From: Ianthella basta
Taxonomy: Eukaryota > Porifera > Demospongiae > Verongiida > Ianthellidae
Length of the DNA: 64,000 nt
NCBI GenBank assembly: GCA_964019415.1
Contig: OZ025872.1
Location: 1-64,000, forward strand
Direction: 5' to 3'
The notes below the pieces were generated by a model, which worked only from the letters and a program-made list of their open reading frames with translations, ran no database searches and was not told the origin of the DNA. Below are positions 2,937-56,588 of the stretch, piece after piece. Position numbers and translations under genes: made by a program. Every line of letters starts with the position of its first letter. Position 1 is the stretch's first letter.

Positions 2937-3899
2937 TTAAACCAAGTAACCAGCATGCTTGATATATGCGCGACAGTCCTCTTCCTTGACAGATGCGAAC
3001 GCTGATGCAAGGACAAGTCTTGGATCACTTGTGGCGTGAAATACAATGGAATTACTCCTTATGTAGGACTTGACCTGATGGAAGCATTCCTCAATTGGGT
3101 TCAGGTCAGGGCTGTAAGGAGGAAGGAACCATAGTAATGCTCCCGAGCTGAGGATCAATTGACTGACTTCATCAACATGATGGATTGAGGCATTATCCAT
3201 TATTACAATTGAATTCCTGTTTGACCCATTGAATGGCTTCAGCACAGGCAACAAGCTGTTGCGAACGTATTCACAGAACACATGCCCGTCCACTGAGCCT
3301 TCTACCAAATAGAAATCTTCCACTCCTCTCACAGTAATGGCTGCTAGGGCCGATATCCTTCTACCACAAATATGAAGCTTCAGGGAGACTGGTGCAACAC
3401 CTCTCAAGCCATATCCTTTCTCACGATGAAGGTCACGTTGATTGCTGCCAGTTTCATCAACAAACACGAACATGTTAGCAGGCACATGCATGACTTCATT
3501 GATAAATTTGGCCCTCTTCTCTTCAGACCTTTGGCACACGATGAAGTGCATTTTCTGCCTGGAGAGCCCCATTTTGTGTATTTCCGTACATATCTGACTG
3601 AGTGATACTGCTATTCCCATTGCTTCCAGCTTTACCTGGATCTCCTCTAAATACAATCCAGGCAGGTCGAAAACAATCTGCAGTAGCATAAGCTGTTCTT
3701 CTTCTCGCAACTTAGGTAAGCGTCCTCTCTTCCTGCCATCTTGGGTTACTTCTCCTGTGTTGAAGAACAAATCGATGCATCTTCTAACGCTTTTAGCGGA
3801 CACGAAAAAATTCTCCGCGATCTCCGTGACGCTTTGCTGCCTGTAGATGTATGACCACACCATTCTCCATCTTAAGTCAGCAGAGAAGGCTCGAGGCAT
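2937..3899 (-). CDS. Tc1/mariner-superfamily transposase, DD34E, intact
   Basis: A single uninterrupted exon encodes 320 aa starting MPRAFSADLRW; three in-frame codons lie upstream but the first is GTG, so ATG at 3899 is preferred. Residues 1-50 look like a homeodomain-like helix-turn-helix (SVTEIAENFFVSAKSVRR) and about 60-115 like a second winged helix. The catalytic core shows D148 (FVDETGSNQRD), D235 (IVIMDNASIHH) and E270 (YSPDLNPIEE), with 34 residues between the second D and the E. These are the DDE residues that cut and join transposon ends. The frame has no stop or frameshift, so the copy may be young or maintained. The nearest inverted end is 4012-4095. Confidence 0.88.
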   Translation of the reverse strand: MPRAFSADLRWRMVWSYIYRQQSVTEIAENFFVSAKSVRRCIDLFFNTGEVTQDGRKRGRLPKLREEEQLMLLQIVFDLPGLYLEEIQVKLEAMGIAVSLSQICTEIHKMGLSRQKMHFIVCQRSEEKRAKFINEVMHVPANMFVFVDETGSNQRDLHREKGYGLRGVAPVSLKLHICGRRISALAAITVRGVEDFYLVEGSVDGHVFCEYVRNSLLPVLKPFNGSNRNSIVIMDNASIHHVDEVSQLILSSGALLWFLPPYSPDLNPIEECFHQVKSYIRSNSIVFHATSDPRLVLASAFASVKEEDCRAYIKHAGYLV

Positions 3900-4011
3900 G
3901 ATGTTCACCGTAAGTCCGATTTGTAAATAGCTAGCTAGCTACTTCGCGTAGTTCCACGAACGACATACGACGCCTTAGCGAAGCGATATGCATTATTTAT
4001 AGTCGCCATTA

Positions 4012-4292: not shown

Positions 4293-6671
<2,379 letters not shown>

Positions 6672-12060: not shown

Positions 12061-15000
12061 ACGAGATGCACTGGACCCCCTACGACATGCACTGGACCCA
12101 CATTGAGATGCACTGGACCTCCTACGAGATGCACTGGACCCCCTACAAGATGAACTGGACCCCCTACGAGATGCACTGGACCCCCTACAAGATGAACTGC
12201 ACCACCTACGAGATGCACTAGATTCCCTACGAGATGCACTGGACCCTCTACTACATTCACTCGACCCCCTTTGATATGAACTGGACCCCCTATGACATGC
12301 ACTAGAAACTTTACGAGATGCACTGGACCCCATACGACATGCACTGGAAACCTTACGAGATGCACTAGACCCCCTACGAGATGCACTGGACCCACTGCGA
12401 GATGTACTGCACCTTTTTCGAGATGCAATGGACCCCCTACGAGATGCTCTGGACCCCCTACGACATGCACTGGACCCCCTACGAGATGCACTGGACCCCC
12501 TACTAGATGCACTGGACCCTTTCGAGATGCACTCTACTCCCTACAAGATGCACAGGACCCCCTACGAGATGCACTGGACCCCCAACGAGATGCACTGGAC
12601 CCCCTACGAGATGCACTGGACCCCCTTCGAGATGCACTGGACCCCCTACAAGATTCTCTGGCGTCCTACGAGATGCACTTGACCGCCTACGAGATGCACT
12701 GAACATCTCTAAATGATGCACTATACCCTCTACGAGATGTACTGAACCCCCTTCAAGATGCACTGGACCCCCTACGAGATGCACTGGACCCCCTACAACA
12801 TGCACTGGACCCCCTACGAGTTGCACTGGACCCCCTTCGAGATGCACTGGACCCCCTACGACATGCACTGGACCCCGTTCAAGAAGCACTGGAGACCCTA
12901 CAACATGCACTCTACCCCTTACGAGATGCACTGGACCGCCACGAGATGCACTGGACCCTCTACTAAATACACTGGATCCCCTTCGAGATGCACTTGACCC
13001 CCTTCGAGATGCACTGGACCTTCTACAACATGCACTGGAGCTCCTATGAGATGCACTGGACCCCCTATGAGATGCACTGGACCCCCTACGAGATGCACTT
13101 AACCGCCGAGACGCACTGGACAACCCTAAATGATGCACTTGACCCTCTACTAGATGCAATGGACCACCTTCAAGATGCACTGGACTCCCTACGACATGCA
13201 CTGGACTCCCTGCGACATGCACTGTACCCCCTACGACATGCACTAGACCCCCTACGAGATGCACTGCACCCCCTTCAAGATGCACTGGACCCCCTACGAC
13301 ATGCACTGGACCCCCTACGAGATGCACTGGACCCCCTACGACATGCAATGGACACCCTACGAGATGCACTGGACACCCTACAACATGCACTGGACCCCCT
13401 TCGAGATGCACTGGACCCCCTACGAGATGCACCAGACCCCCTACGACATGCACTGGACCCCCTACGACATGCACTGGACCCACATTGAGATGCACTGGAC
13501 CCCTATGAGATGCACTGCACCCCCTTCGAGATGCACTGGACCCCCTACGACATGCACTGAACCCCCATACGAGATGCACTGGACCCCTGCGAGATGCACT
13601 GGACAACCCTAACGGATGCACTTGACCCTCTACGAGATGCACTGGACCTCCTACATGATGCACTGGACCCCCTATGAGATGCACTGGAACCCCTACGAGG
13701 TGCACTGGACCCACTACGAGATGCACTGGACCCCCTACGACATGCACTGGACCCACATTGAGATGCACTGGACCCCTTACGAGATGCACTGGACCCCCTG
13801 CAAGATGCTCTGAACCCCCTACGAGATGCACTGGACCCCCTACGAGATGAACTGGACCACCTACGAGATGCACAGAACTCCCTACGACATGCACTGACCC
13901 CCCTACGAGATGCTCTGGACCCCCTTTGAGATGCACTGGACCCCCTAAGACATGCACTAGACCCCATACAAGATGCACTAGACCCTCTACGACATGCACT
14001 GGACCCCCTAGGAGATGCACTGGACCCCCTTCGAGATGCACTGGACCGCCTATTAGATGCACTGGACAACCCTAAAGGATGCACGTGACCCTCTACGAGA
14101 TGCACTGGACCCCCTACATGATGTACTGGACCACCTACAAGATGTATTGGATTCCCTACGAGATGAACTGGTCCACCTACGAAATGCACTGGACCCCCTA
14201 CGAGATGCACTGGACCACCTACAAGATGCACTGGACCCCCTTTGAGATGCACTGGACCCCCGACGACATGCACTGGACCCCGTACGAGATTCACTGGACC
14301 TCCTACGAGATGCACTGGACAACCCTATAGGATGCACTGGACCCCTTACTAGATGCACTGAACCCCCTTCGAGATGCATTGGACCTTTTACAACATGCAC
14401 TGGACCACCTACAAGATGCACTGGACCCACTACAAGATGCACTGGACCCCATACAAGATGAACTGGACCCCCTACGAGATGCACTGGACCCCCTACGAGA
14501 TTAACTGGACCACCTACGAGATGCACTGGACTCCCTATGAGATGCACTGGACCGTCTACTAGATGCACTCGATCCCCTTCAAGATGCACTGGACCCCCTA
14601 CGACATGCACTGGACACCTTACGAGAATCACTGGACCCCCTACGAGATGCACTGGACAACCCTAAAGGATGAACTAGACCCCCTACGAGATGCACTGGAC
14701 CCCCTATGAGGTGCACTGAACCCCCGACGAGATGCACTGGACCCCCTACGAGATGCACTGGACCGCCTACAAGCTCCACTGAATAATCCTAAAGGATGCA
14801 CTGGACTCCCTTCGAGATGCACTGGACCCCCTACGACATGCACTGAATCCCCTACGAGATGCTCTGGACCCCCTTCGAGATGCACTGGACCCCCTAAGAC
14901 ATGCACTAGACCCCATACGAGATACACTGGACCCCCTACGACATGCACTGGACCCCCTAGGAGATGCACTGGACCCCCTTCAAGATGCACTGGACCCCCT

Positions 15001-18000
15001 ACGAGAAGCACTGGATTCCATACGAGATGCACTGGACCGCCTATTAAATGCACTGGACAACCCTAAAGGATGCACGTGACCCTCTACGAGGTGCACTGGA
15101 CCCCCTACATGATGCACTGGACCACCTACAAGATGTATTGAATTCCCTACGAGATGAACTGGACCACCTACGAAATGCACTGGACCCCCTACGAGATGCA
15201 CTGGACCACCTACAAGATGCACTGGACCCCCTACGAGATGCAGTGGACCCCCTACGACATGCACTGGACCCCGTACGAGATTCACTGGACCCCCTACGAG
15301 ATGCACTGGACAACCCTATAGGATGCACTGGACCCCTTACTAGATGCACTGGACCCCCTTCGAGATGCATTGGACCTTTTACAACATGCACTGGATCACC
15401 TACAAAATGCACTGGACCCACTACAAGATGCACTGGACCCCCTACATGATGTACTGGACCCCCTACGAGATGAACTGGACCCACTATGAGATGCACTGCA
15501 CCCCCTACAAAATGCACTGGACCCCTTACAAGATGCACTGGACTCCCTACAAGATGCACTGGACCCCCTACGAGATGCACTGGACCCCCTACGAGATGCA
15601 CTGGACTCCCTACGAGATGCACTGGACCTTCTACGACATGCATCGGACCCCCTACGAGATGCACTGGACCCCCTTCGAGATGCATTGGACCTTTTGCGAC
15701 ATTCACTGGACCACCTACAAGATGCACTGGACCCCCTACGAGATGAACTGGACCCCCTACGAGATGCACTGTACCCCCTACAAGATGCACTTGACCCTCC
15801 ACAAGATGCACTGGACCACCTACAAGATGCACTGGATTCCCTACGAGATGCACTGGACCCACTACTAGATGCACTGGACCCCCTTTGAGATGCACTAGAC
15901 CCCCTACGACATGCACTGGACCCCTTACGAGATGCACTGGATACCCTACGAGATGTACTGGACAACCCTAAGGATGCACTGGACCCCATACGAGATGTAC
16001 TAGACCCCCTACAAGGTGTACTGCACCCTCTTCGAGATGCGCTGGACCCCCTACGACATGCACTGTACCCCCTACGAGATGCACTAGACCCCCTACGAGA
16101 TGCACTAGACCCCCTACAAGATGCACTGGATCCCCTTCGAGATGCAATGGACCCTTTACAAGATGCACTGGACCCCCTACGAGATTCACTGGACCCCCTA
16201 CGAGATGCACTGGACCTTCTATGAGATGCACTGGACCCCCTAGGAGATGCACTGTACCCCCTTCGAGATGCACTGGATCCCCTTTGTCATGCACTGGACT
16301 TCCTACGAGTTGCATTGTACCTCCTTTGAGATGCATTGGACCTTTTACGACATCCACTGGACCGCCTACAAGATGCACTGGACCCCCTACGAGATGAACT
16401 AGACCCCCTACGAGATGCATTGTATCCCCTACAAGATGCACTTGACCCCCTACAAGATGCACTGGACCACCTACTTAAGATGCACTGGATTTTCTACGAG
16501 ATGCACTGGACCCACTACTAGATGCACTGGACCCCCTTCGAGATGCACTGGACCCCCTACGACATGCACTGGACCCCTTACGAGATGCACTGGATACCCT
16601 ACAAGATGTACTGGATAACCCTAAAGGATGCACTGGACCCCATACGAGATGTACTAGACGCCCTACGAGGTGTACTGCACCCCCTTCGAGATGCGCTGGA
16701 CCCCCTACGACATGCACTGTACCCCCTACGAGATGCACTAGACCCCCTACAAGCTGCACTGAATCCCCTCCGAGATGCAATGGACCCCCTACGAGATGCA
16801 CTGGACCCCCTACGAGATGCACTGGACCCCCTACGAGATGCACTGGACCTTCTATGAGATGCACTGGACCCCCTAGGAGATGCACTGTACCCCCTTCGAG
16901 ATGCACTGGATCCCCTTCGTCATGCACTGGACTCCCTACGAGTTGCACGAGACCCCCTACGACATACCCTGGACCCCCTACGAGATGCACTGGACCCCTT
17001 ACGAGATGCACTGGACCCCCTACGAGAAGCACTGGACCCTCTACGAGATGCACTGGACCCCCTACGAGATGCACTGGATCCCCTATGAGATGCACTGAAC
17101 CCCATACAAGATGCACTGGACCCCCTATGAGATGCACTGGACCCCTTACGAGATGCACTGGACACCCTACGAGCTGCACTGGATCCCCTACGAGATGCAC
17201 TGAACTCCCTACAAAATGCACTGGACCCCTTTCGAGATGCACTGGACCCTTACGAGATGCGCTGGACACCCTATGAGATGCACTGGACACCTTACAAGAT
17301 GCACTCGACACCCTACAAGATGCACTGGACCCCCTACGAGATGCACTGGACCCCATACAAGATGCACTGGACCACCTATGAGATGCACAGGACCACTTAC
17401 AAGATGCACTGGACTTTCTACAAGATGCACTGGACCCACTACGAGTAGCACAGGACCCCCATCGAGACGCACTGGACCCTCTATGACATGCACTGGACCC
17501 CCTACAAGATGCACTGGACCCCCTACATAATGCACTGGACAACCCTAAAGGATGCACTGGATCCCTGTCGTCATGCACTGGACTCCCTACGAGTTGCACT
17601 GGACCCCTTACGGTATACCCTGGACCCCCTACGAGATGCACTGGACCCCTTACGAGATGCACTGGACCTTCTACGAGATGCACTGGACCCCCTACGAGAT
17701 GCACTGGACCCCCTACGAGATGCACTGGACCCCCTACGAGATGCACTGGATCCCCTATGAGATGCACTGAACCCCCTACAAGATGCACTGGACCCCCTAC
17801 GAGATGCACTGGACCCCTTACGAGATGCACTGGACACCCTACGAGCTGCACTGGATCCCCTACGAGATGCACTGAACTCCCTACAAAATACACTGGACCC
17901 CTTTCGAGATGCACTGGACCCTTACGAGATGCGCTGGACACCCTACAAGATGCACTGGACCCCCTACGAGATGCACTGGACCCCATACGAGATGCACTGG

Positions 18001-19553
18001 ACCACCTATGAGATGCACAGGACTACTTACAAGATGCACTGGACTTTCTACGAGATGCACTGGACCCACTACGAGAAGCACTGGACCCCCATCGAGACGC
18101 ACTGGACCCCCTATGACATGCTCTGGACCCCCTACAAGATGCACAGGATCCTCTACCACATCCACTGGACCCCCTTCGAGATGCACTGGATCCCCTTCGT
18201 CATGCACTGGACTCCCTACGAGTTGCACTGGACCTCCTTCGAGATGCATTAGACCTTTTACGACATCCACTGGACCACCTACAAGATGAACTGGACCCCC
18301 TATGAGATGTACTGTACCCTCTACAAGATGCACTTGACCCCCTACGAGATGCACTGGACCACCTACGAGATGCATTAGATTCTCTACGAGATGCACTGGA
18401 CCAACTACTAGATGCACTGGACCCCCTTCGAGATGCACTGGACCCCCTACGACATGCACTGGACCCCTTACGAGATGCACTGGATACCCTACGAGATGTA
18501 CTGGACAACCCTAAAGGATGCACTGGACCCCATACAAGATGTACTAGACCCCCTACGAGGTGTACTGCACCCCCTTCGAGATGCGCTGGACCCCCTACGA
18601 CATGCACTGTACCCCCTACGAGATGCACTAGACCCCCTACGAGATGCACTAGACCCCCTACAAGCTGCACTGGATCCCCTTCGAGATGCAATGGACCCCC
18701 TACGAGATGCACTGGACCCCCTACGAGATGCACTGGACCTCCTACGAGATGCACTGGACCTTCTATGAGATGCACTGGACCCCCTTCGAGATGCACTGAA
18801 TCCCCTTCGTCATGCACTGGACCCGCTACGAGATGCACTGGACCCCCTACGACATACCCTGGACCCCCTACGAGATACACTGGACCCCTTACGAGATGCA
18901 CTGGACCCCCTACGAGAAGCACTGGACCCCCTACGAGATGCACTGGACCCCCTATAAGATGCACTGGATCCCCTATGAGATGCACTGAACCCCCTACAAG
19001 ATGCACTGGACCCCCTACGAGATGCACTGGACCCCTTACGAGATGCACTGGACACCCTACGAGCTGCACTGGATTCCCTACAAGATGCACTGAACTCCCT
19101 ACAAAATGCACTGGACCCCTTTCGAGATGCACTGGACCCTTACGAGATGCGCTGGACACCCTACGAGATGCACTGGACACCTTACGAGATGCACTGGACC
19201 ACCTATGAGATGCACAGGACCACTTACAAGATGCACTGGACTTTCTACGAGATGCACTGGACCCACTACGAGAAGCACTGGACCCCCATCGAGATGCACT
19301 GGACCCCCTATGACATGCACTGGATCCCCTACAAGATGCACTGGACCCCCTACATAATGCACTGGACAACCCTAAAGGATGCACTGGACCCCCTTCGTGT
19401 TGCACCGGACCCCCTTCGACATGCACTGGACCCCCTACGAGATGCACAGGACCCTCTACCACATGCACTGGACCCCCTGCAAGATGCACTGAACCTCCTA
19501 CGAGATGCACTGGACCCTTACAAGATGCACTTGACCCCCTATGGAGTGCACAA
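12061..19553. repeat. 7.5-kb satellite array, 21-bp unit with higher-order repeats
   Basis: About 355 copies of a 21-bp unit with consensus core GATGCACTGGACCCCCTAC plus GA or CA. Variants form larger periods: 14058-14320 closely matches 15046-15310 (offset 988), and units containing ACAACCCTAAAGG recur at about 16615, 17540, 18505 and 19370. Because 21 is a multiple of 3, several frames stay open for hundreds of codons (HWTPYEM forward, VHLVGGP reverse). There is no start context, splice logic or domain, so I do not call them genes. Confidence 0.95.
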
Positions 19554-19938
19554 CGGAAGCAATCAAAAGACGCCATTCAGCGTTCACCACGTGTGTTCAA
19601 AGTGCTAGATTGCTTCGTATGAAGGAATGAAACGTCATGCAATCCTAAGAGTATTAGAAGTTGCTCTTGCACAGATTCTGGAAACTGCCTGTGTGGTCCC
19701 ACAGCTGGCGTTCAATATGCCGTGCTAGTGTGCGGCCTTGCTTGTTGGCTTGCATGCAATACCCAAGTCAATAACTGCATACACTGCATACATCTGCTTA
19801 TGCTTGTAACAAGAAACAAACTAGTGAGGACACAGAACACGAGTCAACAGTATCATACACATGTTCCGGGTACATGACAACACACACAGTAAATGGGTGC
19901 AAGAAACACAGACAAGGCAAGACACATTTACAGCTTGG
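19554..19938. other. 3' flank of the LRP5/6 gene
   Basis: Unique sequence between the satellite array and the stop codon of the minus-strand LRP5/6 gene. It presumably contains its 3' UTR. No gene was seen. Confidence 0.4.
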
Positions 19939-44164: not shown

Positions 44165-44269
44165 GCTGCTTCTAGCTACGCAGCACAAGTCCCTTCAGTT
44201 CTGTGTAGGGCAAGCTCGAGATAACGTTCCGCGCGCCATTTGCAAGCAACGCGCGAAACAATAAACAAC
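44165..44269. promoter_or_regulatory. Short bidirectional promoter, LRRIQ1-like / F-box gene
   Basis: Only 105 bp separate the two divergent start codons. The region is GC-rich (GCGCGCC, AACGCGCG) without a TATA box. The start codons are well supported; promoter function is inferred from spacing. Confidence 0.6.
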
Positions 44270-45454
44270 ATGGCTGCCAGCAGGAGCTATAGCTACCCGA
44301 GGAGAAAGCGTGTTGCAGTCCGACCGAGCTCTTCGCCAAGAGTCTCCCGTCAGGATCCTCTGCTATGCGCCAAACCTAAGCGGTTGAAGATGGTTTCCAA
44401 ATGGCAGAATGACTGGGACGCACTCCCCCAAGAGCTCCTAGTAATTATTCTTCGTTATTTGCAAGATAGTCACGCATTGCTTGCGTGCCGGCGCGTGTGC
44501 AGGTCGTGGTGGGCGTGTTGCGAGGACCCCTGTCTGTGGAGGAGCGTGGTCCTGTCTGTAACGACCTCCAAGTCAGACAAGTCTACAATCTGGGACTTTG
44601 CCGGCCGCCACTCCATCGCACACTACCACCTGCACTGGTACAGCAGTGGGTTGGTGGGCAGGCTGCTCGACCACGCCCCCACCCTCTCGTCCCTGGTGGT
44701 GGACAGGTATGAGCGGTACTCAGAGGAGCTGCTGAAGGCTGTGCTGGCGCCTAAGAAGGCAGCAGCCATGGCATTGCAGTCCGTTACATTACGATGTTCA
44801 AGCACACCAGTACCCAACAAAGGAAGGGGGTGTGTCCCAGTGAAACAAGCAGGGTCTACCCCCACTGCTGATGAGCTAGTCCGGGCAGCTGTGGACACAC
44901 TTGTTTGCCTGCCGCAGCTCTACCGTGTGCAGCTGGAGGGCTTCACAGGCAGGGCCTTCCCCCTTCTGCCCCCATCTGCAGCACTTGTGGCAGTCACCAA
45001 GCTGACATTAAAGGGATTCCCCCATGCTGATCTTGGTACCATGGCAACCAAGTTCCCTGCCCTCTGTGAGCTGACCCTATTCCAGTGCACAGTGCTCTGT
45101 GAAGCCAGCACTGACAGACCTTTCTCCTCCCTCAATACACTGGTTCTCCAACACTGCCGTCTGGGTGCCTCGCATCTGCCCGGTCTTCACTCTCTCCAGC
45201 ACGGGGACTTTGCCTTCTGCTCTCTGAGCAGTGATGAGCTGCAGACAGTTCTGTCTGCCCTCCCCACAGGAGGGCTGGCTCATCTTGACCTGTCTGGCAA
45301 CAAGGTCTCTTGTGAGGGGGCAAAGCTGGCAGTGACAAAGTTGAGCAGTAAAGGCGGCCATCTTGTTCTGAAGCACTGCCACAGTGCTGGCCTCAGTCAG
45401 CATGTGTTGCTACGGTTACAGAAGAAGCATCCCAATGCAGTCATTGTCCAGTAG
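44270..45454 (+). CDS. Intronless F-box protein with leucine-rich C-terminus
   Basis: One exon of 394 aa starting MAASRSYSYP (an earlier in-frame TTG is not used). The basic N-terminus precedes an F-box at about 50-95 (DWDALPQELLVIILRYL...CRRVCRSWWACCEDPCLW), which binds SKP1 in SCF ubiquitin ligases. The rest shows irregular leucine-rich repeats (LVVDRYER, LYRVQLEGF, LCELTLFQC, LNTLVLQHCRLGA, LAHLDLSGNKV, LVLKHC), the usual substrate-binding side of FBXL proteins. I cannot name the vertebrate orthologue. Its last codons are the source of duplicated fragments at about 48870 and 51870. Confidence 0.85.
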   Translation: MAASRSYSYPRRKRVAVRPSSSPRVSRQDPLLCAKPKRLKMVSKWQNDWDALPQELLVIILRYLQDSHALLACRRVCRSWWACCEDPCLWRSVVLSVTTSKSDKSTIWDFAGRHSIAHYHLHWYSSGLVGRLLDHAPTLSSLVVDRYERYSEELLKAVLAPKKAAAMALQSVTLRCSSTPVPNKGRGCVPVKQAGSTPTADELVRAAVDTLVCLPQLYRVQLEGFTGRAFPLLPPSAALVAVTKLTLKGFPHADLGTMATKFPALCELTLFQCTVLCEASTDRPFSSLNTLVLQHCRLGASHLPGLHSLQHGDFAFCSLSSDELQTVLSALPTGGLAHLDLSGNKVSCEGAKLAVTKLSSKGGHLVLKHCHSAGLSQHVLLRLQKKHPNAVIVQ

Positions 45455-45811: not shown

Positions 45812-47739
45812 TCAGTTCAGTTTAATGACACCACATCGCTGCAGCTGGTGAACAAGGTCCTTCGCCGCTCTCTCCTTGGACTCGTGCTTCCTGCCAACCA
45901 CTTGTACAAGCTCGCTCACAAAGTGCAGCGGTGCAGCTCCCTCGGGAGGGGTCACATCCAACGTCAGCTGACATTGAAATGTATTCTGAGCAACATTCTC
46001 AGGTTCACCTGTCAGACTCCACCTCCCTCCAGCGTTCTCCACCTTCTGTCGGCACTCATTGAGGAGCTCTTGGCATTTCTTATTGGCACCCCTGGAGACA
46101 ACAATGGGCTGCGGAGCTGGTGAGTGTCTGATGGGCGGAGCTAGCTCTGGTGAGTGTCTGATGGGCGGAGCTAGCTCTGGTGGGTGTCTGATGGGCGGAG
46201 CTAGCTCTGGTGGGTGTCTGATGGGCAGAGCTAGCTCTGGTGGGTGTCTGATGGGCAGGGCTACAGACTGGCCCATGGGTGGGGCTAGTGGGTGGTTTCT
46301 CTCCCTGATCAGTCCCTCCAATGTCTCCACCATCAGTCTGCATGCCTCTTCTTTTGCCTCGTCCTTGGTGCGAAAGGGCTGGGACTGTTCAGTGTACCTC
46401 CTCCCCTCCCACTCCACCTGCAAACGGAAGATGTATCCGTTCTCCACTGGTGTAGGCGTCTCCACCACATTCAGCTGGTAGTGCTGTTTAAATTCATTGT
46501 TGAACCTTGCTCGGTAGTTCACCTGTGATGGCGAGGGGTTGGGTTGGGGCTGGGCTGGGGGCTGGGCTGGGGGCTGGGCTGGGGGCTGGGCTGGGGGCTG
46601 GGGTGGGACTGCAGATGGCACCTGAGGGGCTCTCACCAACACTGAAGGCAAGATAGCATACACATATCAAGTTATACACATCATCACAGCATCATACACA
46701 CATACACAATACATACATACATACATACATACATACATACATACATACATACATACATACATACATACATACATACATACATACATACATACATACATAC
46801 ATACATACATACATACATACATACATACATACATACATGCACAGCTCAAAATGCAACTGTGTAGGTGTATTTACTTTGGGGCCAGCAAAGTTGACGCAGC
46901 TGAGCTGCAGATGCAAAGAGGTTGATATCTCCAATCAGAGTGCACCTGTTGATCTCTGCTATCTGGAAGGTAGCATCATTGGGCGACTCGGTCTGTGACA
47001 GCAAACTTTGACACATGTACAACATCTCTCGGTTGACCTCCGCAATCAAGGAAAGGAGTGCCATGTTGCAAGCAGCCATCTTTGGAGCAAACAGCTCCGA
47101 CCACATCCCATGAGAAGTTGAACCAGGAGAGGGTAACAGCTCTTGCGCAATGTAATCAGGTAGAGTAGAGAAAACCACAAGATGGTTTCCCTCGGAAGGC
47201 ATCAGATCGCCCTGTGCGCTAGTCCCGCCGCGGTCCGCCACCCGTTCCGGAGAGGGCACACTAGCTGAACGAGCTAACACCCTTCCCCTGTCCCGCTTCT
47301 CCCCGCGACAGGCGTCAAAGAAGAGCAGCTTTGCGACACCCGTTCCACAGCGGTGCTGCAAGAAGGGCTCGCACACGTCGTCCGTACTCAACCTCTGACC
47401 GTCTTGGCAGACGATGTAGTCCTTCTGGCCGTGTCCGCAGTACACGAACACGAGGTGCTGCTTGACGGCGCTGGAGGCCGCCGATATCTCCAACGCTGAC
47501 ACGTGCTCGAGCAGACGGATCGTCTCCTGCTTGGTTAGGTTGGTGTAAGGGTGCACGCTGAAATGGAGGGCTTCCAGCGCTTGGATCCACGTTACATGGT
47601 CCTTCTTCGTCCCCAGGAGTTCTTTCCATTTGGGGTCGGGGCAGTTTGTGTAGTCGTTGGTCAGAACTACAGCCACGCCGATTGTCGGCAACTGCTGTAC
47701 TGCGTCAAAGCGCGGTACGAGTGCTCCTCCCATCGCCAT
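45812..47739 (-). CDS. Caspase-like peptidase with two dsRNA-binding-like domains, copy A
   Basis: Exons 47739-46875 and 46641-45812 encode 564 aa, phase 1 junction. The ATG at 47739 (MAMGG) matches the start of the other two copies. Residues about 18-285 are a caspase-fold C14 domain with the dyad H103 (VYCGHGQKD) and C144 (LLFFDACRGEK), then the small-subunit-like part (HLVVFSTLPDYIAQE, HGMWSELFAP). Exon 2 gives a PPAQ-repeat linker, a dsRBD-like unit (about 329-400; FRLQVEWEGRRY then RTKDEAKEEACRLM), a PIRHPPELAP repeat, and a second dsRBD-like unit (about 475-560; CQELLNECRQK, FQCQLTLD, KESKERAAKD-type helix). The alpha-beta-beta-beta-alp­ha order fits a dsRBD but RNA binding is not proven. 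No CARD or DED is visible. Confidence 0.85.
46708..46838. repeat. (ACAT)n microsatellite in the intron of copy A
   Basis: About 33 perfect tetranucleotide repeats between the caspase and dsRBD-like exons. The introns of copies B and C lack it. Confidence 0.96.
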
Positions 47740-47897
47740 GTCTCGCCTGGCCTGTTCTACCGACTCTGCTAGCACAACAGATGCACTGTAGGGGACTGGT
47801 AGGAGCGCTGGGAGAGACCTAGCCGACTGGGCATGACAAACCGACACAATTCTTCGTAGACTTAGGGGAATTCCCTAAAGAAGCACCGGCTGTACTC

Positions 47898-47921
47898 TTA
47901 ATAGTAACATGATCATGCAAG
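47898..47921 (-). promoter_or_regulatory. Conserved upstream motif of caspase copy A
   Basis: AATAGTAACATGATCATGC, about 160 bp before the ATG, recurs before copy B (51791-51812) and copy C (54319-54343), where it carries a TATAAATAG-like core. Conservation in otherwise diverged flanks suggests promoter function. Confidence 0.45.
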
Positions 47922-47983
47922 TCCATAGATAACAGCATGCAAGCAGCTGAAGGACACGTGCACTGGATGACAGTGCTATTGTT

Positions 47984-48580
47984 TCACGATGCCCCGCCCC
48001 CTGCCTGCTGTGCCGCGTTCTGTCCTGCACTCATCATCATGAAGACCACAAGTCCAACCAGGATGTACATCCACTGTCAATAGGGGAGGGGAGGGGAGGG
48101 GAGGGGAGAGGAGGGGAGGGGAGGAGAGGGAGGGGAGAAGAGGGGAGGGAGAGGGGAGGGGAGGAGAGGGGAGGGGGAGGGGAGGAGGGGAGGGGGAGGG
48201 GAGGGGAAGGGAGAGGGAGGGAGAGGGGAGGGGAGGGGAGGGGAGGGGAGGGGAGGGGAGGGGAGGGGAGGGGAGGAGAGGGGAGGGGACGGGAGGGGAG
48301 GGGAGGGGAGGGGAGGGGAAGGGAGGGGGAGGGAGGGAAGATAGGGAGAGGAGGGGAGGGGAGGAGAGGGGGAGGAAGGATAGGGAGGGGAGGGGAGGGA
48401 GGGGAGGGGAAAGGGAGGGGAGGGGTAGGGAGAGGGAGAGGAGGTAGAGAGGATAGGACGCCACAGCCAGTATCCACACACTCTGCCACATCTGTCACTG
48501 TCATTGTCAGCAACACACTATAGCACTAATGGTGTCCACGACTTCGTACACAAGGCTCAGGTATATGCACTGTCACAGAC

Positions 48581-48613
<33 letters not shown>

Positions 48614-48868
48614 TTGCACACACATACACACACACACAAACATGGTACCCAAGCACACACAGGAGCTCACATATCTCTGTAAGAAGCTCCTGTTGTCCTG
48701 TGTCTGCTCTGCTGCCTTCCTCTCGGCCATCTTTTGCAGAAACCCATCAACCTCCGGGCTAGGGGGCGGGGTGTAATCACAGACAGCCTTGCCTACAGCC
48801 CCGCCCACATCACAGCAGCACACGCCCTCACTGCAGGCTCACCCACAGACAGCCTTGCCTACAGCCAC
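47984..48868 (-). pseudogene. EMC10: EMC10 3' fragment (last two exons only)
   Basis: Exon-like blocks 48758-48671 and 48073-47984 match the last two exons of the intact EMC10 gene (54873-54786, 54464-54375), with the same splice sites and open frame (FLQKMAERKAAEQTQDN, then WMYILVGLVVFMMM). Exons 1-5 are absent; the copy stops in the intron before exon 6 and joins F-box gene 3' sequence at about 48870. It has no start and is a duplication remnant. The intron contains a 370-bp GGGGA tract (48078-48455). Confidence 0.88.
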
Positions 48869-49260
48869 GGCTACAGAAGAAGCATCCAATCTTAATGCAT
48901 GCAGTCACTAATTGTCCAGTAGCAGACGTCTCTTCACAGCTGCCTCACTATCAGCACATGACTAAACTGCATGGCCAAGGGTGGGAGGGCAGTTCTGTAT
49001 ACTGATGTATTCTGATTCAAATAGATTGATTGGTCGCTTTTCAATTATAATACAATCTATGCAATTGAAAACAATTAATGGAACTGTATTGATGCCAATC
49101 TGAGATGTGAAGTTAATTACATTCATGAGTCATGATAGATAATTGAAAATAATGATGTGTTGAGGTACATGCATCACTTACTAGATGCATGCACATACAA
49201 TAATAGTATGCCAAAGCTGCAATCGCTGCATGCGCACATGTGCACACAGTCCGTTGCAGC
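48869..49260 (+). pseudogene. Copy of the F-box gene 3' end and its downstream flank
   Basis: From about 48873, ACAGAAGAAGCATCC and later ATTGTCCAGTAGCAGAC match the last codons and stop region of the F-box gene (45418-45465). Further similarity (AATACAATC..TGCAATTG; TGCACACAGTC) continues to the end of caspase copy B. A few indels break the reading frame. Confidence 0.75.
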
Positions 49261-51042
49261 TCAGTTCAGTTTAATGACACCACATCTATGCAGCTGGTGG
49301 ACCAGGTCCTTCGCCGCTCTCTCCTTGGACTCGTGCTTCCTGCCAACCACTTGTACAAGCTCACTCACAAAGTGCAGTGGTGCAGCTCCCTTGGAAGGGG
49401 TCACATCCAACGTCAGCTGACATTGAAAGGTATTCTGAGCAACATTCTCAGGTTCACCTGTCAGACTCCACCTCCCTCCAGCGTTCTCCACCTTCTGTCG
49501 GCACTCATTGAGGAGCTCTTGGCATTTCTTATTGGCACCCCTGGAGACAACTACCTGTGCAGCAGGTGGGCGTGGCATGGGTGGGTACATCACAGCCTGG
49601 CTGATGGGTTCAGTAACACAGTGACCCATGGAGGCTGATGAGTGGCTGCTGGGCGGGGCCATGGGTGGGGCTGGTGAGTGGCTGCAGGGCGGGGCCATGG
49701 GCGGGGCTGGTGAGTGGCTGCAGGGCGGGGCCATGGGTGGGGCTGCTGGGTGGTTCCTCTCCCTGATCAGTCCCTCTAACCTCTCCACCATCAGTCTGCA
49801 TGCCTCTTCCTTTGCCTCCTCCTTGGTGTGACAGGGCTGGGACTGTTCAGTGTACCACACCCCCTCCCACCACACCTGCAAACGAAACGTGTGTGCACCC
49901 TGCTCCTGTAAGGGTATCTCCACCACAGGCTTCAGCTGGTAGCGTTGTCTGAAATCATTATTGAACTTCTGGCGGTAGTTCACCGATGATGGTGCGGGGC
50001 CGCGTGGGGGCTGAGGTGGGATCACGGCTGGCACTTGAGGGGCTCTTACCAACACTGAAGGGAAACAGTCAACACATGAAACGCTCAGCAACGTCAACAA
50101 ACGTACAGTCATATGTACTATAACTGAAACCTTACACAGTACATACATACAAGTGAATACACACATGACCCAGCACATGCAGGTCTTCTCACAAGCACAG
50201 TATACACACGAACAGGTCCACTTACTTTGGGAAGCAAGCTGAGCTGCACATGCAAACAGGTTGACATCTCCGATTAAGGAGCCCCTGCTGGTCTCTGCTA
50301 CCTGGAAGGTGGCACCTTGCTGTGACACAGGCAGCGACAGCAGTCTGCGGCACTCGCACACCATCTTCCAGTTAACGTCTGCAATCAGGGAAGTGAGTGG
50401 TTTGTTGCAAGTAGCTAGGTTCGGAGCGAACATCTGCGACCACATCCCATGAGGAGGGGAGCCAGAGAATGAGAAGAGCTCTTGCGCAATGTAGTCAGGG
50501 AGAGTAGAGAAGACCACGAGGTAGTTTCCTTCAGAAGGCATCAGCTCGCCCTGAGCGATGGTCCCGCCGCGATCCGCCACCCGTCCAGGCACACTAGCTG
50601 AACGAGCATACACCCTTCCCTTGTCCCGCTTCTCCCCGCGACAGGCGTCAAAGAAGAACAGCTTTGCAACACCCGTTCCACAGCGGTGCTGCAAGAAGGG
50701 CTCACACACGTCGTCCGTGCTCAAGCTCTGACCGTCTTGACAGACGATGTAGTCCTTCTGGCCGTGTCCGCTGTACACGAACACGAGATGCTGCTTGACA
50801 TCGCCCGAGGTCGCCGACATCTCCAGCGTTGACACGTGCTCGAGCAGACGGATCGTCTCCACCTTGCTTAGGTTACAGTAGGAACGCACGTCGAAGAGGA
50901 GGTCGCCCAGGGCGCGCTTCCATGTGCGGTGGTCCTCCCTCGTTCCTAGGAGCTCTGTGCAGTCGGGGCAGCCAACGTAGTCGTTGGTTAGAATCACAGC
51001 CACGCCAATTGTTGGCCGTAGGGGCGCGTTTCCCATTGCCAT
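49261..51042 (-). CDS. Caspase-like peptidase with two dsRNA-binding-like domains, copy B
   Basis: Exons 51042-50226 and 50054-49261 encode 536 aa. The start MAMGNAP is matched in copies A and C; an in-frame ATG at 51069 would add nine residues. The catalytic His (VYSGHGQKD) and Cys (FFFDACRGEK) are present. Exon 2 encodes the two dsRBD-like units with a copy-specific linker of about three APPMAPPCSHSP repeats. The 171-bp intron contains no in-frame stop, so intron retention would insert 57 residues without truncation. Its promoter region carries a 605-bp inverted-repeat element. Same orientation and exon layout as A and C. Confidence 0.85.
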   Translation of the reverse strand: MAMGNAPLRPTIGVAVILTNDYVGCPDCTELLGTREDHRTWKRALGDLLFDVRSYCNLSKVETIRLLEHVSTLEMSATSGDVKQHLVFVYSGHGQKDYIVCQDGQSLSTDDVCEPFLQHRCGTGVAKLFFFDACRGEKRDKGRVYARSASVPGRVADRGGTIAQGELMPSEGNYLVVFSTLPDYIAQELFSFSGSPPHGMWSQMFAPNLATCNKPLTSLIADVNWKMVCECRRLLSLPVSQQGATFQVAETSRGSLIGDVNLFACAAQLASQSKWTCSCVYCACEKTCMCWVMCVFTCMYVLCKVSVIVHMTVRLLTLLSVSCVDCFPSVLVRAPQVPAVIPPQPPRGPAPSSVNYRQKFNNDFRQRYQLKPVVEIPLQEQGAHTFRLQVWWEGVWYTEQSQPCHTKEEAKEEACRLMVERLEGLIRERNHPAAPPMAPPCSHSPAPPMAPPCSHSPAPPMAPPSSHSSASMGHCVTEPISQAVMYPPMPRPPAAQVVVSRGANKKCQELLNECRQKVENAGGRWSLTGEPENVAQNTFQCQLTLDVTPSKGAAPLHFVSELVQVVGRKHESKERAAKDLVHQLHRCGVIKLN

Positions 51043-51165
51043 GTCTCTCTTGGCCCGGTCCACGATCATCCACGCTACCCTGCCATGGCCACGGGCCAAC
51101 TAACCGAGTGCTGACGTTGGCGATGGCAGTTCTGCGTATAGTTGGGGAAAATCCCATCTGGAGTA

Positions 51166-51770
51166 CCGGTGTCACAGTTTATTCCATCCCCCCAGTTTTA
51201 TATCCCCCCGGGTAAAATAAACTAGGATACTTTATCCCCCGACTTCGAATTTCTGAGTATTTCTTAACTCTTTTTGGTGTGTTTCACCTCGAGGGGTTGT
51301 TCTGACAGCCATCAACCCTGCTTTGACAAGCAGTAGCTAAGATTCAGACCGTTTCATGCTCCTCACATGCTCAGGCTGTAGCGTCGATGTACCTGCACAT
51401 TGATGTCCACCAGTTTGCGAAACTGCACGCCGTACTGCTACTCAAGCACTTCTGCTCGTTGTAGTAGTGCCCTCTTGACATTCCTCGAGAACCCAGAGGA
51501 TTACACAAGCATCCCAGCCATGGTAGAAGGACAAAAACCTCACCGCGGTCGTCAGTTAACAAGATCGATGTGGTCTTCTGCAAGGACTGCGAAGGAAGTG
51601 CAGGGTTCGCAGATATCATCACCTAACAGTCTCTTCTGGTAGTGGTAAGTCTCATCCTGCAGCAGGGTGCATTTTACTAGCTTCTATCAGCATTTCTGTG
51701 TCGTTTAACCAACCTTCGGTTACCCGGGGGGGATACTTTATACGGGGGGTAAAATAAACTGTGACACCGG
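51166..51770. mobile_element. MITE-like insertion upstream of caspase copy B
   Basis: The left end reads CCGGTGTCACAGTTTATT and the right end is its reverse complement (AATAAACTGTGACACCGG), each followed inward by C-rich/TATA words (CCCCCC, TATA). The 605-bp interior has no gene. It separates the copy B start codon from the conserved upstream motif (51791) that is about 160-200 bp from the ATG in the other copies. Exact target duplication is unclear. Confidence 0.7.
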
Positions 51771-51790
51771 CCCGGGGGGCACCGATTTCT

Positions 51791-51812
51791 ATAAATAGTA
51801 ACATGGTCATGC
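51791..51812 (-). promoter_or_regulatory. Conserved upstream motif of caspase copy B
   Basis: ATAAATAGTAACATGGTCAT matches the element before copies A and C. Here it is pushed about 750 bp from the ATG by the inserted element. Confidence 0.45.
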
Positions 51813-51868
51813 GGTCCTTACCCCTGACTCCATGAGTTTTGTGGCTCGAAGTGCGTAAACGACAAGTG

Positions 51869-52144
51869 CTTAGTCAGCAGCATGTGTTGCTATTACGAAG
51901 CATATCTCTATGCGCAGTTTATTCCTCCCTGCAGCACCACCACAGCACAGACTAGCCACAAGTACAATGTATTCTAGTACAGTCATTGCATTGCAGGTGT
52001 CCACCTTACACTGGCCATGGTTCATGACACAACTAATGCTACTCAATAGCTACTCTACACATGTGTCATTATACACAGCTGATCACTACACGTGCACGCG
52101 CTACAGGGGGCACACCACAAGCAATGCATGGTCTGCTGTGGAGC
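51869..52144 (+). pseudogene. Second short remnant of the F-box gene 3' end
   Basis: TAGTCAGCAGCATGTGTTGC followed by ACGAAGCAT (51871-51905) resembles the F-box gene at 45393-45432 (CAGTCAGCATGTGTTGC..AGAAGCAT). The remainder to 52144 is diverged 3' flank of copy C. The match is short. Confidence 0.45.
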
Positions 52145-54130
52145 TCAGCGAACTCGCACGACACAGTTCTGCTGTAGCTGCCAGACAAGGTCCTGTGCAG
52201 CTTGTTCCTTGGAGTCGCGCTTCTTGCCAACTACCTGCACACGCTTCGATACCAAGTGTAGCTGCGCAGCTCTTGCAGAGCGGGCCACAATCAACTTCAG
52301 CTGACACTGAAAGGTGGAGTGAGCAACACCTTCAGGTTCACCCGTCAGACTCCACCTCCCTCCGGCATTCTCCACCTTCTGTCGGCACTCATTGAGGGGC
52401 TGTCGATACTTCTTATTGACACCTCCGGAGACAACAATGGGCTGCACAGCAGGTGGGCAGGGCATGGGTGGGGCTGCAGCCTGGTTTGTGGGTGGGGCTG
52501 CAGCCTGGTTTGTGGGCGGGGCTGGTGGGTGGTCGCTCTCCCTGATCAGTCCTTCTAACCTCTCCACCATCAGTCTGTAGGCCTCTTCCTTTGCCTCCTC
52601 CTTGATGCGGCAGGGCTGGGACTGTTCAGTGTACTGCCTCCCCTCCCACTCCACCTGCAAACGGAAGGCGCACCCACCCCTGTAAAATATAGTTGCCCCT
52701 TTCACCTTCAACTCATGCTGCTCTTTTAAATTTTCAAGTCTCTGCTGGTAGTTGGTGGGTGCCAATGGGGGGCTGGGTGGGGGCTGGGGTGCAGATGGCT
52801 TCTGAGGGGCTCTTGCCGACACTGAGGGGGAATAGTATAGTGGAGAAGTACATGGTCACAGCACATCAGTAACACGCACGCTCGCAATTGTATTTTTAAT
52901 ACCACTGCAAATACTTGGCTACGTGAACCCCATGGATGTGGTAAGCCAGCAGGTGGCAACAAGACCGATGGCACCGTTGGCTGTTGGCTGCGGAGACACC
53001 AGCCTTATCACCCCAGTAACATGGCCCCCTCAGTGCAATAAAGGTATTCATCTATAGGCTTGCAAGACTCACGAGATGAGAGAGGTGGGGTACAGCCTTG
53101 AGTGATGGCATTAGAATATCCATCCTTGGCTCCTTGCTGTAGAATTCCCCACCTACACTTGGTAATGTCTAAGTGACTAGCATACGTTGCACTACCAGTG
53201 CTAAACACTGGAAAGTGTGCTAGAACAGAGAATTACTCAAATTCCTTTCTTTCCCCAGTGGTTTGTGGTTCACAAGTGTATGCAAGTCTATTTACTTTGG
53301 GGCCAGGAAAGTTGATGTAGCTGAGCTGCCGCAAACAGGTTGACATCTTCAAATAAGGCGTTGCAAGTCTCTGCTACCTGGAAAGTGGCAGCTTCGGGCG
53401 ACTGAGGGTGTGACAGTAAACGACGACACTGGTCTACCATCTCCCGGTTGACATCTAATATCAGGAAAGTTAGCGACTGGTCGCAAGTAGCCAGCTTTGG
53501 GGCAAACAGCTCCGACCACATCCCATGAGGAGGGGAGCTTGGAGAGCTCGAGGATGGGAGTTCCTGGGCGGTGTAGTCAAGGAGAGTAGAGAACACCACG
53601 AGGTAGTTTCCCTCTGAAGGCATCAGCTCGCCCTGAGCGATGGTCCCGCCGCGCTCCGCCACCCGTCCAGGCTCCCTAACTGAACGAGCATACACCCTTC
53701 CCCTGTCCCGCTTCTCCCCACGACAGGCGTCAAAGAAGAGCAGCTTTGCAACACCCGTTCCACAGCGGTGCTGCAAGAAGGGCTTACACACGTCGTCCGT
53801 ACTCAACCTCTGACCGTCTTGGCAGACGATACAGCCCTTCTGTCCGTGTCCGCAGTACACGAACACGAGGTGCTGCTTGACGGCGCTGGAGGCCGCCGAT
53901 ATCTCCAACGTTGACACGTGCTCGAGCAGGCTAATCGTCCCCTGCCTGTTTAGGTTGAAGTAGGAACGCACGTCAAAGCGGAGGTCGCCCAGGGCGCGCT
54001 TCCAGGTGTGGTGGTCCTCCCTCGTTCCTGGGAGCTGTCCCCACCTGGGATCGGGGTAGCCAACGTAGTCGTTGGTTAGAATCACAGCCACGCCAATTGT
54101 TGGCCGTAGGGGCGCGTTCACCATTGCCAT
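52145..54130 (-). CDS. Caspase-like peptidase with two dsRNA-binding-like domains, copy C
   Basis: Exons 54130-53296 and 52821-52145 encode 503 aa. The start MAMVNAP matches copies A and B. The dyad His (VYCGHGQKG) and Cys (LLFFDACRGEK) are intact. Exon 2 has the dsRBD-like pair (FRLQVEWEGRQY; FQCQLKLIV) around a short PPTNQAAA repeat linker. Copy C is the most diverged in the second dsRBD-like unit. It sits directly downstream of intact EMC10, the likely ancestral position of the gene. Confidence 0.85.
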
Positions 54131-54374: not shown

Positions 54375-56588
54375 TCACGATGCCCCGCCCCCTGCCTGCT
54401 GCGCCGCGTTCTGTCCTGCACTCATCATCATGAAGACCACAAGTCCAACCAGGATATACATCCACTGTCAATAGGGGAGGGGGGAGAGGGGAGGGGAGGG
54501 GGAGGGGGGAGGGGGGAGGGAAGGGGGGAGGGGAGGGGATAGGACACCACAGCCAGTGATCCAATACATCAGTATCCACACACTCTGCCACATCTGTCTA
54601 CTGCACTGTCATTGTCAGCAACACGCTATAGCACTAATGGTGGCAGGCATACATACAGACACACATACACATACACACGCACACACACAGGCCCACACAG
54701 ACACACATACACATACACACGCACACACACACACACGCACACACACAGGCCCACACATGGTACCCAAACACACACAGGAGCTCACATATTTCTGTAAGAA
54801 GCTCCTGTTGTCCTGTGTCTGCTCTGCTGCCTTCCTCTCGGCCATCTTTTGCAGGAACCCATCGACATCCGGGCTAGGGGGTGGGGTGTAATCACAGACA
54901 GCCTTGCCTACAGCCCCGCCCACACCACAGCAGCACACGCCCCCACTGCAGGCTCACCCACAGACAGCCTTGCCTACAGCCCCGCCCACACCAGAGCAGC
55001 ACACGCCCTCACTGCAGGCTCACCCACAGACAGCCCTGCCTACAGCCCCGCCCACACCACAGCAGCACATGCCCTCACTGCAGGCTCACCCACAGACAGC
55101 CTTGCCTACAGCCCCACCCACGCCCCCACTGCAGGCTCACCTTGGTCCAGCCTCCCCACTGTGCAAGTGGACTGACGTAGTGAAGGTCCTTGGGGGCTAA
55201 CGGGAGAGGGAGGGGGAGGGGAGGGAGGGGGAGGGGAGAGGGGGAGGGGTTAGGAGCAAGGTGGGAGGAGATAGAGCTGAACAAACTGGAGTGACCACTT
55301 ACAAGGGTCATAGAGTCGCCACACTCGTCGGCCGTTGTTGTGAGTGCCACGCCCACCACTGCCCCGCCCCCATCACCGTGCACTGTGATGTGGTCCTCCA
55401 GTTGTGACTCAAGCAGCAAGCACTGCACAGGAGATAGGTAGGCAGGTACACACTACTGGGCGTGGCATGGGCGTGGCTAGCTAGCACTGCACAGGAGAGA
55501 GGTAGGCAGGTACACACTACTGGGCGTGGCATGGGCGTGGCTACCTAGCACTGCACAGGAGAGAGGTAGGCAGGTACACACTACTGGGTGTGGCATGGGC
55601 GTGGCTACCTAGCACTGCACAGGAGAGAGGTAGGCAGGTACACACTACTGGGCGTGGCATGGGCGTGGCTAGCTAGCACTCACAGCTCTGGTGAAGCCGT
55701 ACACGTAGGATCCTCCAGTGGAGTTGTCAGATGTGAGGGGAGAGGAGAAGGTTGTCTGCACTCGAATCAAATAGTTTCCACCTCTTTGTGCTGCCTCCTA
55801 CACAGGGGGGGGGGTCCAATCAAAGCAACCCAACTCTCCAGTTCCAAGCACCATTTCATTACCATAGCAACAGAGAATACACGTTGAATGGCAGTCTGGG
55901 GGCATGCCGTCTGACACTGTCCCCTCCCCCTGTCAGGACCCGCCCACTCACACAACAGTCCACCTCACCAGTAGCCTGGCCTGGTCCTCTGCTGAGAGTG
56001 GATATTGGTCAAAGTCCGACGGCCGAGAGGAGCGCAATGACTGCACAGACAGAGTACCCCTACAACAAGAGCGAGGGGGCGGGGTCAGGCACACACTGCA
56101 ATACTACAGTCACTGTCACACAAGTGTAGTGTGACTTGTGTACAGAGTCCACTGGAAGTAACCACACAGCTAAATAGGTACTTCCAACAAGTAACCAATG
56201 TCACCATTGATATCAGTGCGTGGACTCTGCAGGACTCACATGACGTCATACATAACACAGTGATTTACTATAAACACTACTCATATCTAATTCAATAGGT
56301 CTATTGCAGGCCCAGTGCATGGAGGAAACACGATTCATGTATAAACTGCCACACAGTATCATACAGTAATGCACAGTTCAAAATAAGCAAAAGTAGCAGA
56401 AGCTATGAGACAGCTTAGAACATTGAGTACCGTTTTGTGAAATGGACTGAGTCGAAGGAGTGTTCAATGTCCAGAGTGACGACAGAAGCTGCTTTGTGGC
56501 TACTCGATGACTTTTTGGCACTCCAACCCACACTCCAAAGAGACTGCGAAAGAAGTACACAGTACAATAGTGTGGTCGCGGCCGCCAT
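54375..56588 (-). CDS. EMC10: ER membrane protein complex subunit 10
   Basis: Seven exons encode 238 aa: 56588-56431, 56059-55969, 55797-55684, 55422-55303, 55196-55141, 54873-54786, 54464-54375. The signal peptide starts MAAATTLLYCVLLSQ. The luminal domain shows HSFDSVHFTKRGTLSVQSL, ARLL, SYVYGFTRACLLLESQL and TFTTSVHLHSGEAGP, lining up with the known EMC10 pattern. A charged linker (FLQKMAERKAAEQTQDN) is followed by one membrane helix (WMYILVGLVVFMMM) and a Gly/Ala-rich end. EMC10 is a luminal-facing subunit of the EMC insertase, which helps insert tail-anchored and multipass proteins. Introns 3 and 5 hold 64-bp and 66-bp tandem repeats. Divergent from SYCP3. Confidence 0.9.
54888..55140. 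repeat. 66-bp tandem repeat in EMC10 intron 5, about 4 copies
   Basis: The unit includes ACAGACAGCCTTGCCTACAG and CAGCAGCACACGCCC. It spans nearly the whole intron. The EMC10 fragment at 48780-48865 keeps about one and a half units, so the array expanded after duplication or contracted there. Confidence 0.88.
55421..55680. repeat. 64-bp tandem repeat in EMC10 intron 3 carrying acceptor copies
   Basis: Units start at 55421, 55485, 55549 and 55613. Each contains CACTGCACAGGAGA, which on the sense strand is TCTCCTGTGCAG/TG, a copy of the exon 4 3' splice site. Confidence 0.9.

Follow-up and report, generated by a model that had tools for sequence, protein, structure and literature searches.

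Near the start of contig C5 (OZ025872.1) of the sponge Ianthella basta, three adjoining two-exon genes on the minus strand (g1-g3, positions 45812-54130) each join a caspase-family protease domain in a single frame to two C-terminal units, the first of which is a double-stranded RNA-binding domain (dsRBD) by predicted fold and the second probably another. Positions given without a contig refer to the window, the stretch of 64,000 nucleotides at the start of C5 that was analysed against the 209-Mb genome (96 contigs), and all gene structures are in silico models. Matches to caspase, CARD, Death and RIG-I_C-RD domains identify the genome as that of an animal. We put at roughly 0.5 the probability that these genes encode proteases triggered by double-stranded RNA (dsRNA), counterparts of PKR in which a caspase-descended protease takes the place of the kinase.

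Gene models and the two C-terminal units

The three models, their exons and the two units of each are as follows.

g1, exon 1 46875-47739 joined to exon 2 45812-46641, minus strand: in silico model of 564 amino acids (aa)
g1 exon 1, 46875-47739, minus strand: encodes the caspase-family (C14) protease domain and begins with the ATG at 47739
g1 exon 2, 45812-46641, minus strand: Pro-rich linker, unit 1, repeat linker, unit 2
g1 unit 1, 46289-46534, minus strand: dsRBD-like, with KDEAK; Pfam 19.1 bits, cut-off 23
g1 unit 2, 45815-46105, minus strand: probable dsRBD
g2, exon 1 50226-51042 joined to exon 2 49261-50054, minus strand: in silico model of 536 aa
g2 exon 1, 50226-51042, minus strand: encodes the caspase-family protease domain and begins with the ATG at 51042
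g2 exon 2, 49261-50054, minus strand: linkers and two units
g2 unit 1, 49747-49995, minus strand: dsRBD by predicted fold, with KEEAK; Pfam 22.1 bits
g2 unit 2, 49264-49554, minus strand: probable dsRBD
g3, exon 1 53296-54130 joined to exon 2 52145-52821, minus strand: in silico model of 503 aa
g3 exon 1, 53296-54130, minus strand: encodes the caspase-family protease domain and begins with the ATG at 54130
g3 exon 2, 52145-52821, minus strand: linkers and two units, without a Pfam dsrm match
g3 unit 1, 52526-52756, minus strand: found by genome search with unit 1
g3 unit 2, 52154-52438, minus strand: found by genome search with unit 2

The start codons were chosen by us at the DMAM common to all three, g2 having another in-frame ATG upstream. 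The introns of g1, g2 and g3, 233, 171 and 474 bases long, are all GT-AG and of phase 1, with the junction at the same place (Q-M-x-x-R-A-P-Q). The intron of g2 (50055-50225) contains no in-frame stop and the frame 49261-51099 is open across it for 612 aa, so that the two halves of g2 lie in one frame even when unspliced. The phase-1 intron and single-frame fusion recur in a fourth C5 gene described below, and thus in 4 of 4 C5 genes. An earlier reading of this DNA from its letters alone (the sequence-only reading) had proposed a one-protein layout with a Pro-rich linker, and the models bear this out.

None of the three window models contains an internal stop codon, and in exon 2 all 18 gap runs have a length divisible by three. 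Over the 6 pairs of the four paralogues, dN/dS, obtained from simple counts without a significance test, was 0.26-0.40 for the caspase part, 0.17-0.62 for unit 1 and 0.17-0.40 for unit 2, and was higher (0.42-1.03 over 25-51 codons) in the variable repeat linker between the units. On the basis of the low dN/dS of the domains, the in-frame gap runs and the open g2 intron, g1-g3 look like real genes under constraint.

The sequence-only reading had described two dsRBD-like units, to be checked against PF00035 and by structure prediction. It was found that unit 1 does not reach the PF00035 gathering cut-off of 23 bits in any paralogue: g1 and g2 gave the sub-threshold matches listed above, the fourth copy scored 19.5 bits and g3 had no match. 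The predicted structure of g2 unit 1 adopts the alpha-beta-beta-beta-alpha order with block-mean pLDDT of 71-91, and the model matches dsRBDs (Foldseek, VIA). An hhalign comparison of unit 1 with 11 dsRBDs of the same genome gave a probability of 93.9%, with none of 200 shuffles as high. Searched against PDB sequences with an E limit of 10, the unit 1 profile matched PKR alone, and weakly (E 0.037). The first of the two units is therefore a dsRBD by predicted fold.

The second is a probable dsRBD that lacks the lysine motif. Its alpha-beta-beta-beta-alpha order was seen in a low-confidence model only (pLDDT 46), whose fold matches are non-significant; the list is headed by the third dsRBD of PACT (the D3 homodimer) and also holds the third domains of TRBP and Loqs. 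With hhalign, unit 2 aligned to the dsRBDs of the genome over 71 columns at 3.3% probability; 7 of 500 shuffles reached this score, all of them over fewer than 60 columns. The single PDB match of the unit 2 sequence profile, a flagellar L-ring protein (E 0.33), was rejected as unrelated. Searches of the genome with either unit returned four matches each, all within C14-domain genes on C5.

A caspase-family protease with an altered S1 pocket

The protease domains of g1-g3 all match Pfam Peptidase_C14 (PF00656), with E values of 1.2e-21, 2.9e-21 and 3.5e-17, respectively (63.3-78 bits, cut-off 21.4). The catalytic dyad is intact in each, within GHGQK and DACRGE, as the sequence-only reading had stated for its caspase-fold peptidase. 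A profile that combined g1-g3 with other C14 sequences of the genome, 10 in all, aligned with caspase-3 over nearly the whole domain (E 2.7e-27), and caspases made up all 60 of the best 60 of 165 PDB rows that it matched. The dyad and the caspase-3 match are thus shared with metazoan caspases (C14A).

The pocket that receives the substrate P1 residue differs. According to PMC4357240, Arg87, Gln184 and Arg233 of caspase-7 bind the P1 Asp, and MALT1 has Asp365, Asp462 and Glu500 at similar positions. When g1-g3 were aligned to caspase-3 and to the genome's own caspases, the Arg/Gln/Arg triad was found to be replaced by Leu/Asp/Glu, so that the Asp and Glu fall where MALT1 has Asp462 and Glu500. 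This correspondence was established via the caspase alignment, with the roles as given in PMC4357240; MALT1 (C14B) itself is not among the best 60 of 165 PDB rows. Neither a Death nor an Ig Pfam match, which would be in line with MALT1, was found in g1-g3 or in 10 chosen minus-strand open reading frames (ORFs) around them, and the sequence sits with caspases. Judged by the aligned S1 pocket, the g1-g3 proteases are not caspases in the strict sense, and the earlier label has to be narrowed, since the residues that bind P1 Asp give way to an acidic, MALT1-like set. Given the acidic S1, we predict a MALT1-like preference for cutting after Arg or Lys, and the loss of the P1 Asp-binding residues means that Asp-based caspase assays may read negative.

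Our alignment covers 26 of the 54 caspase places in the genome, and in 19 of these 26 rows Asp occupies the Gln position; five rows (C19, C38a-c and C12a) keep the full caspase S1 set together with the Cys, and row C7 keeps the three S1 residues with the Cys missing. In a tree of 17 of the 26 rows, which leaves out C13, C12b and any row shorter than 176 residues, the rows with Asp and those with the caspase S1 set are split at 100/100, a value that carries a long-branch warning. The inter-subunit segment of g1-g3 contains 7, 7 and 8 Lys or Arg residues, compared with 3 in the fourth copy; Asp is present in this segment of g1-g3 and absent from that of the fourth copy, so that none is common to all four.

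A fourth copy, a second family and other relatives

A fourth paralogue lies at approximately 9.9127-9.9161 Mb of C5 (locus L038, 1747-5099), 9.9 Mb from the cluster. It splices in silico, through three GT-AG introns of matching phase, to a frame of 879 residues comprising a CARD, a segment X of 231 residues, the caspase domain, unit 1 and unit 2. The catalytic His and Cys are kept here as in the other three C5 genes, within GHG and DTCRG, while Val takes the place of Glu in S1 and the start region is without the DMAM start of g1-g3. The CARD exon matches CARD_2 at 37.1 bits and the fourth copy probably carries a CARD, the join of CARD-X to the caspase being predicted from splice signals alone. 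A search with segment X gave 84 matches in the genome, counting its own; many lie on contig C3, at 11.3-12.2 Mb and in other places, and the single copy that was scanned matched nothing in Pfam. Among the CARD matches listed (150 of 367 candidates), many likewise fall on C3, and since X is common where CARD is frequent, CARD-X may be a widespread cassette.

For the window genes the absence of a CARD or DED, as first read, held: no Pfam match to CARD, DED or Death was found in the g1-g3 proteins or in the 10 ORFs around them, and the CARD of the fourth copy had no tblastn match in the window. In this respect, as in S1 and the C-terminal dsRBDs, g1-g3 differ from caspases with a CARD or DED prodomain. 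The count of three genes was right for the window and understates the family, given a fourth copy that probably has a CARD.

The strongest independent support for the pairing of caspase and dsRBD, which the sequence-only reading had put forward, is a second cluster on contig C8 at 6.186-6.200 Mb (loci L036 and L037), where four caspase exons alternate with four dsrm exons on one strand. All four dsrm exons are above the Pfam cut-off in the genome search (33.8-44.6 bits), and the three dsRBD exons scanned gave 38.6, 46.9 and 41.5 bits. Junctions are of phase 1 in 2 of 4 pairs, those read by eye. The second unit of this family keeps KKKAE and is net positive, with GPxH absent. One of the C8 caspase exons is broken across two frames (L036 7091-8223). 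An extra caspase fragment with a stop was also seen at C8:6196836-6197102.

Several caspase copies on C5 are likewise split between two frames, for example at C5:370012-370284 and 370278-370667; such copies, with equal or near-equal scores, were noted at 0.37, 0.48, 0.69, 0.94 and 0.99 Mb. In L043, the one of these loci that was read, a Tigger/pogo-like transposase ORF, recognised from its translation, stands beside one split copy (4499-6160), and a mobile element may therefore have spread the copies. Downstream of the caspase pair at 0.488/0.492 Mb is a Death-like ORF (16.1 bits, below the cut-off of 22.6). On contig C7, dsRBD matches are grouped at 1.792-1.806 Mb, several of them within long ORFs.

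Further searches were negative. NCBIfam gave no match for any of 5 sequences. Scans that used two short peptide patterns each yielded 28 pattern matches on viral contigs and 38 on prokaryote contigs, none of which was confirmed. Gasdermin had no match in the genome; control genomes gave none either.

In the window itself, a short ORF (DGFLQKMAERKAAEQTQDNRSFLQ) is repeated on the minus strand at 48557-48838 and 54615-54953, upstream of g1 and g3, so the unit of tandem duplication seems to include upstream DNA. An F-box/LRR-like gene, read from its translation, adjoins the cluster on the plus strand (44225-45454). Farther away are an open Mariner/IS630-like transposase ORF of 333 aa on the minus strand (2937-3938; read from its translation) and a long repetitive tract at approximately 12500-19600 with several overlapping repetitive ORFs.

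A proposed PKR-like protease and its alternatives

Caspase-family domains usually need dimerisation or cleavage for activity. PKR (EIF2AK2) combines two dsRBDs and a pairing-activated effector enzyme in one polypeptide, a layout repeated here, with the differences that the effector is a C14 protease rather than a kinase, that the dsRBDs are C-terminal and that unit 2 has no lysine motif. In the mechanism that we infer, RNA binding would fall to unit 1, which would dock on dsRNA, and dimerisation to unit 2, which is poor in the lysine motif and would help to pair or stack molecules. Crowding on the RNA would gather the protease domains and activate them through induced proximity, the way apical caspases are activated. 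Specificity for Arg or Lys would come from the acidic S1 pocket, perhaps allowing self-cleavage in the basic inter-subunit segment, and the outcome would be cell death or a signalling cleavage. The CARD on the fourth copy suggests a connection with CARD adaptors. A dsRNA-linked domain and a CARD in one protein are also found in RIG-I-like receptors, although the fourth copy is without their helicase or C-terminal RNA domain.

A number of observations weigh against a dsRNA trigger. Unit 1 has no GPxH loop and a net charge near zero, and g1-g3 keep two of the three lysines of KKxAK (K[DE]EAK; the fourth copy has KKEAK). Its best structural matches include ribosome-hibernation proteins and dsRBDs from protein complexes, namely DCL4 dsRBD2 with DRB4 and Miranda/Staufen dsRBD5. 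KKxAK is absent from unit 2, which has SKE[RQK]AA in all four paralogues, and the unit 2 model is poor. C5 caspases at 0.488 and 1.27 Mb are close kin of g1-g3 and have no such unit, and two C5 rows without a dsRBD are placed among the dsRBD rows in the tree, under the same long-branch warning. Finally, RIG-I_C-RD has three matches within 13 kb of contig C14 (5.215-5.228 Mb; the contig, as distinct from the peptidase family), and a RIG-I-like receptor, another dsRNA sensor, therefore probably exists in this genome.

Much of this fits the main rival, in our judgement unlikely but the best of the alternatives, that the dsRBDs are protein-interaction or dimerisation modules, bringing the protease to a partner such as a Dicer- or TRBP-like complex or dimerising it constitutively, with dsRNA not the trigger. 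The absence of both the GPxH loop and a net basic charge from unit 1, its several top matches solved in protein complexes and the PACT-led fold list of unit 2 (not significant, from a low-confidence model) all favour it. PACT, TRBP and Loquacious resemble g1-g3 in their tandem dsRBDs and, to our knowledge, carry no enzyme. However, K[DEK]EAK is kept in unit 1 of all four C5 paralogues, and the C8 family retains both its KKKAE and its net positive second unit.

We think it improbable that the dsRBDs localise the protease to dsRNA to trim RNA-bound viral or host proteins, RNA then directing the enzyme to its place of action without turning it on. The anatomy would be the same, the long Pro-rich linkers permit tethering without allostery, and basic RNA-binding proteins would make fitting substrates for an enzyme of the predicted Arg/Lys specificity; but given how caspase-family domains are usually activated, bringing them together on RNA would tend to activate them as well. 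Even less probable is a non-cutting regulator or decoy with RNA or other caspases as its binding partners: the DTCRG and S1 Val of the fourth copy deviate in that direction, whereas His and Cys are kept in all four C5 genes and the caspase part has the low dN/dS given above. Least probable are decaying recent tandem copies or a mis-joined gene model, which the frame-split C5 copies and broken C8 exon would favour, in view of the stop-free window models, their in-frame gap runs and low dN/dS, the g2 frame open through its intron and the independent C8 pairs.

Returning to the PKR-like protease, a fuller version can be offered tentatively: a protease-based dsRNA alarm, in which an RNA-gated enzyme derived from a caspase, with trypsin-like (Arg/Lys) specificity, would exist in at least two gene families (four genes on C5; four exon pairs on C8, one with a broken caspase exon), one form bearing a CARD. 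No description of a caspase-dsRBD protein was found in the titles and abstract openings of a partial open-access literature. PMC11251625 reports dsRNA-induced apoptosis as common to cnidarians and bilaterians and includes one sponge in its caspase survey; its main text does not use the term dsRBD.

If the proposal is correct, RNA sensing, a signalling adaptor and a protease would be united in one chain in the CARD-bearing form. Vertebrates connect the sensing of dsRNA to a protease through several proteins, and a fused sensor-protease would be a shorter route from dsRNA to protease in an animal. The genes described here make a question testable: does dsRNA directly switch on a caspase-family protease?

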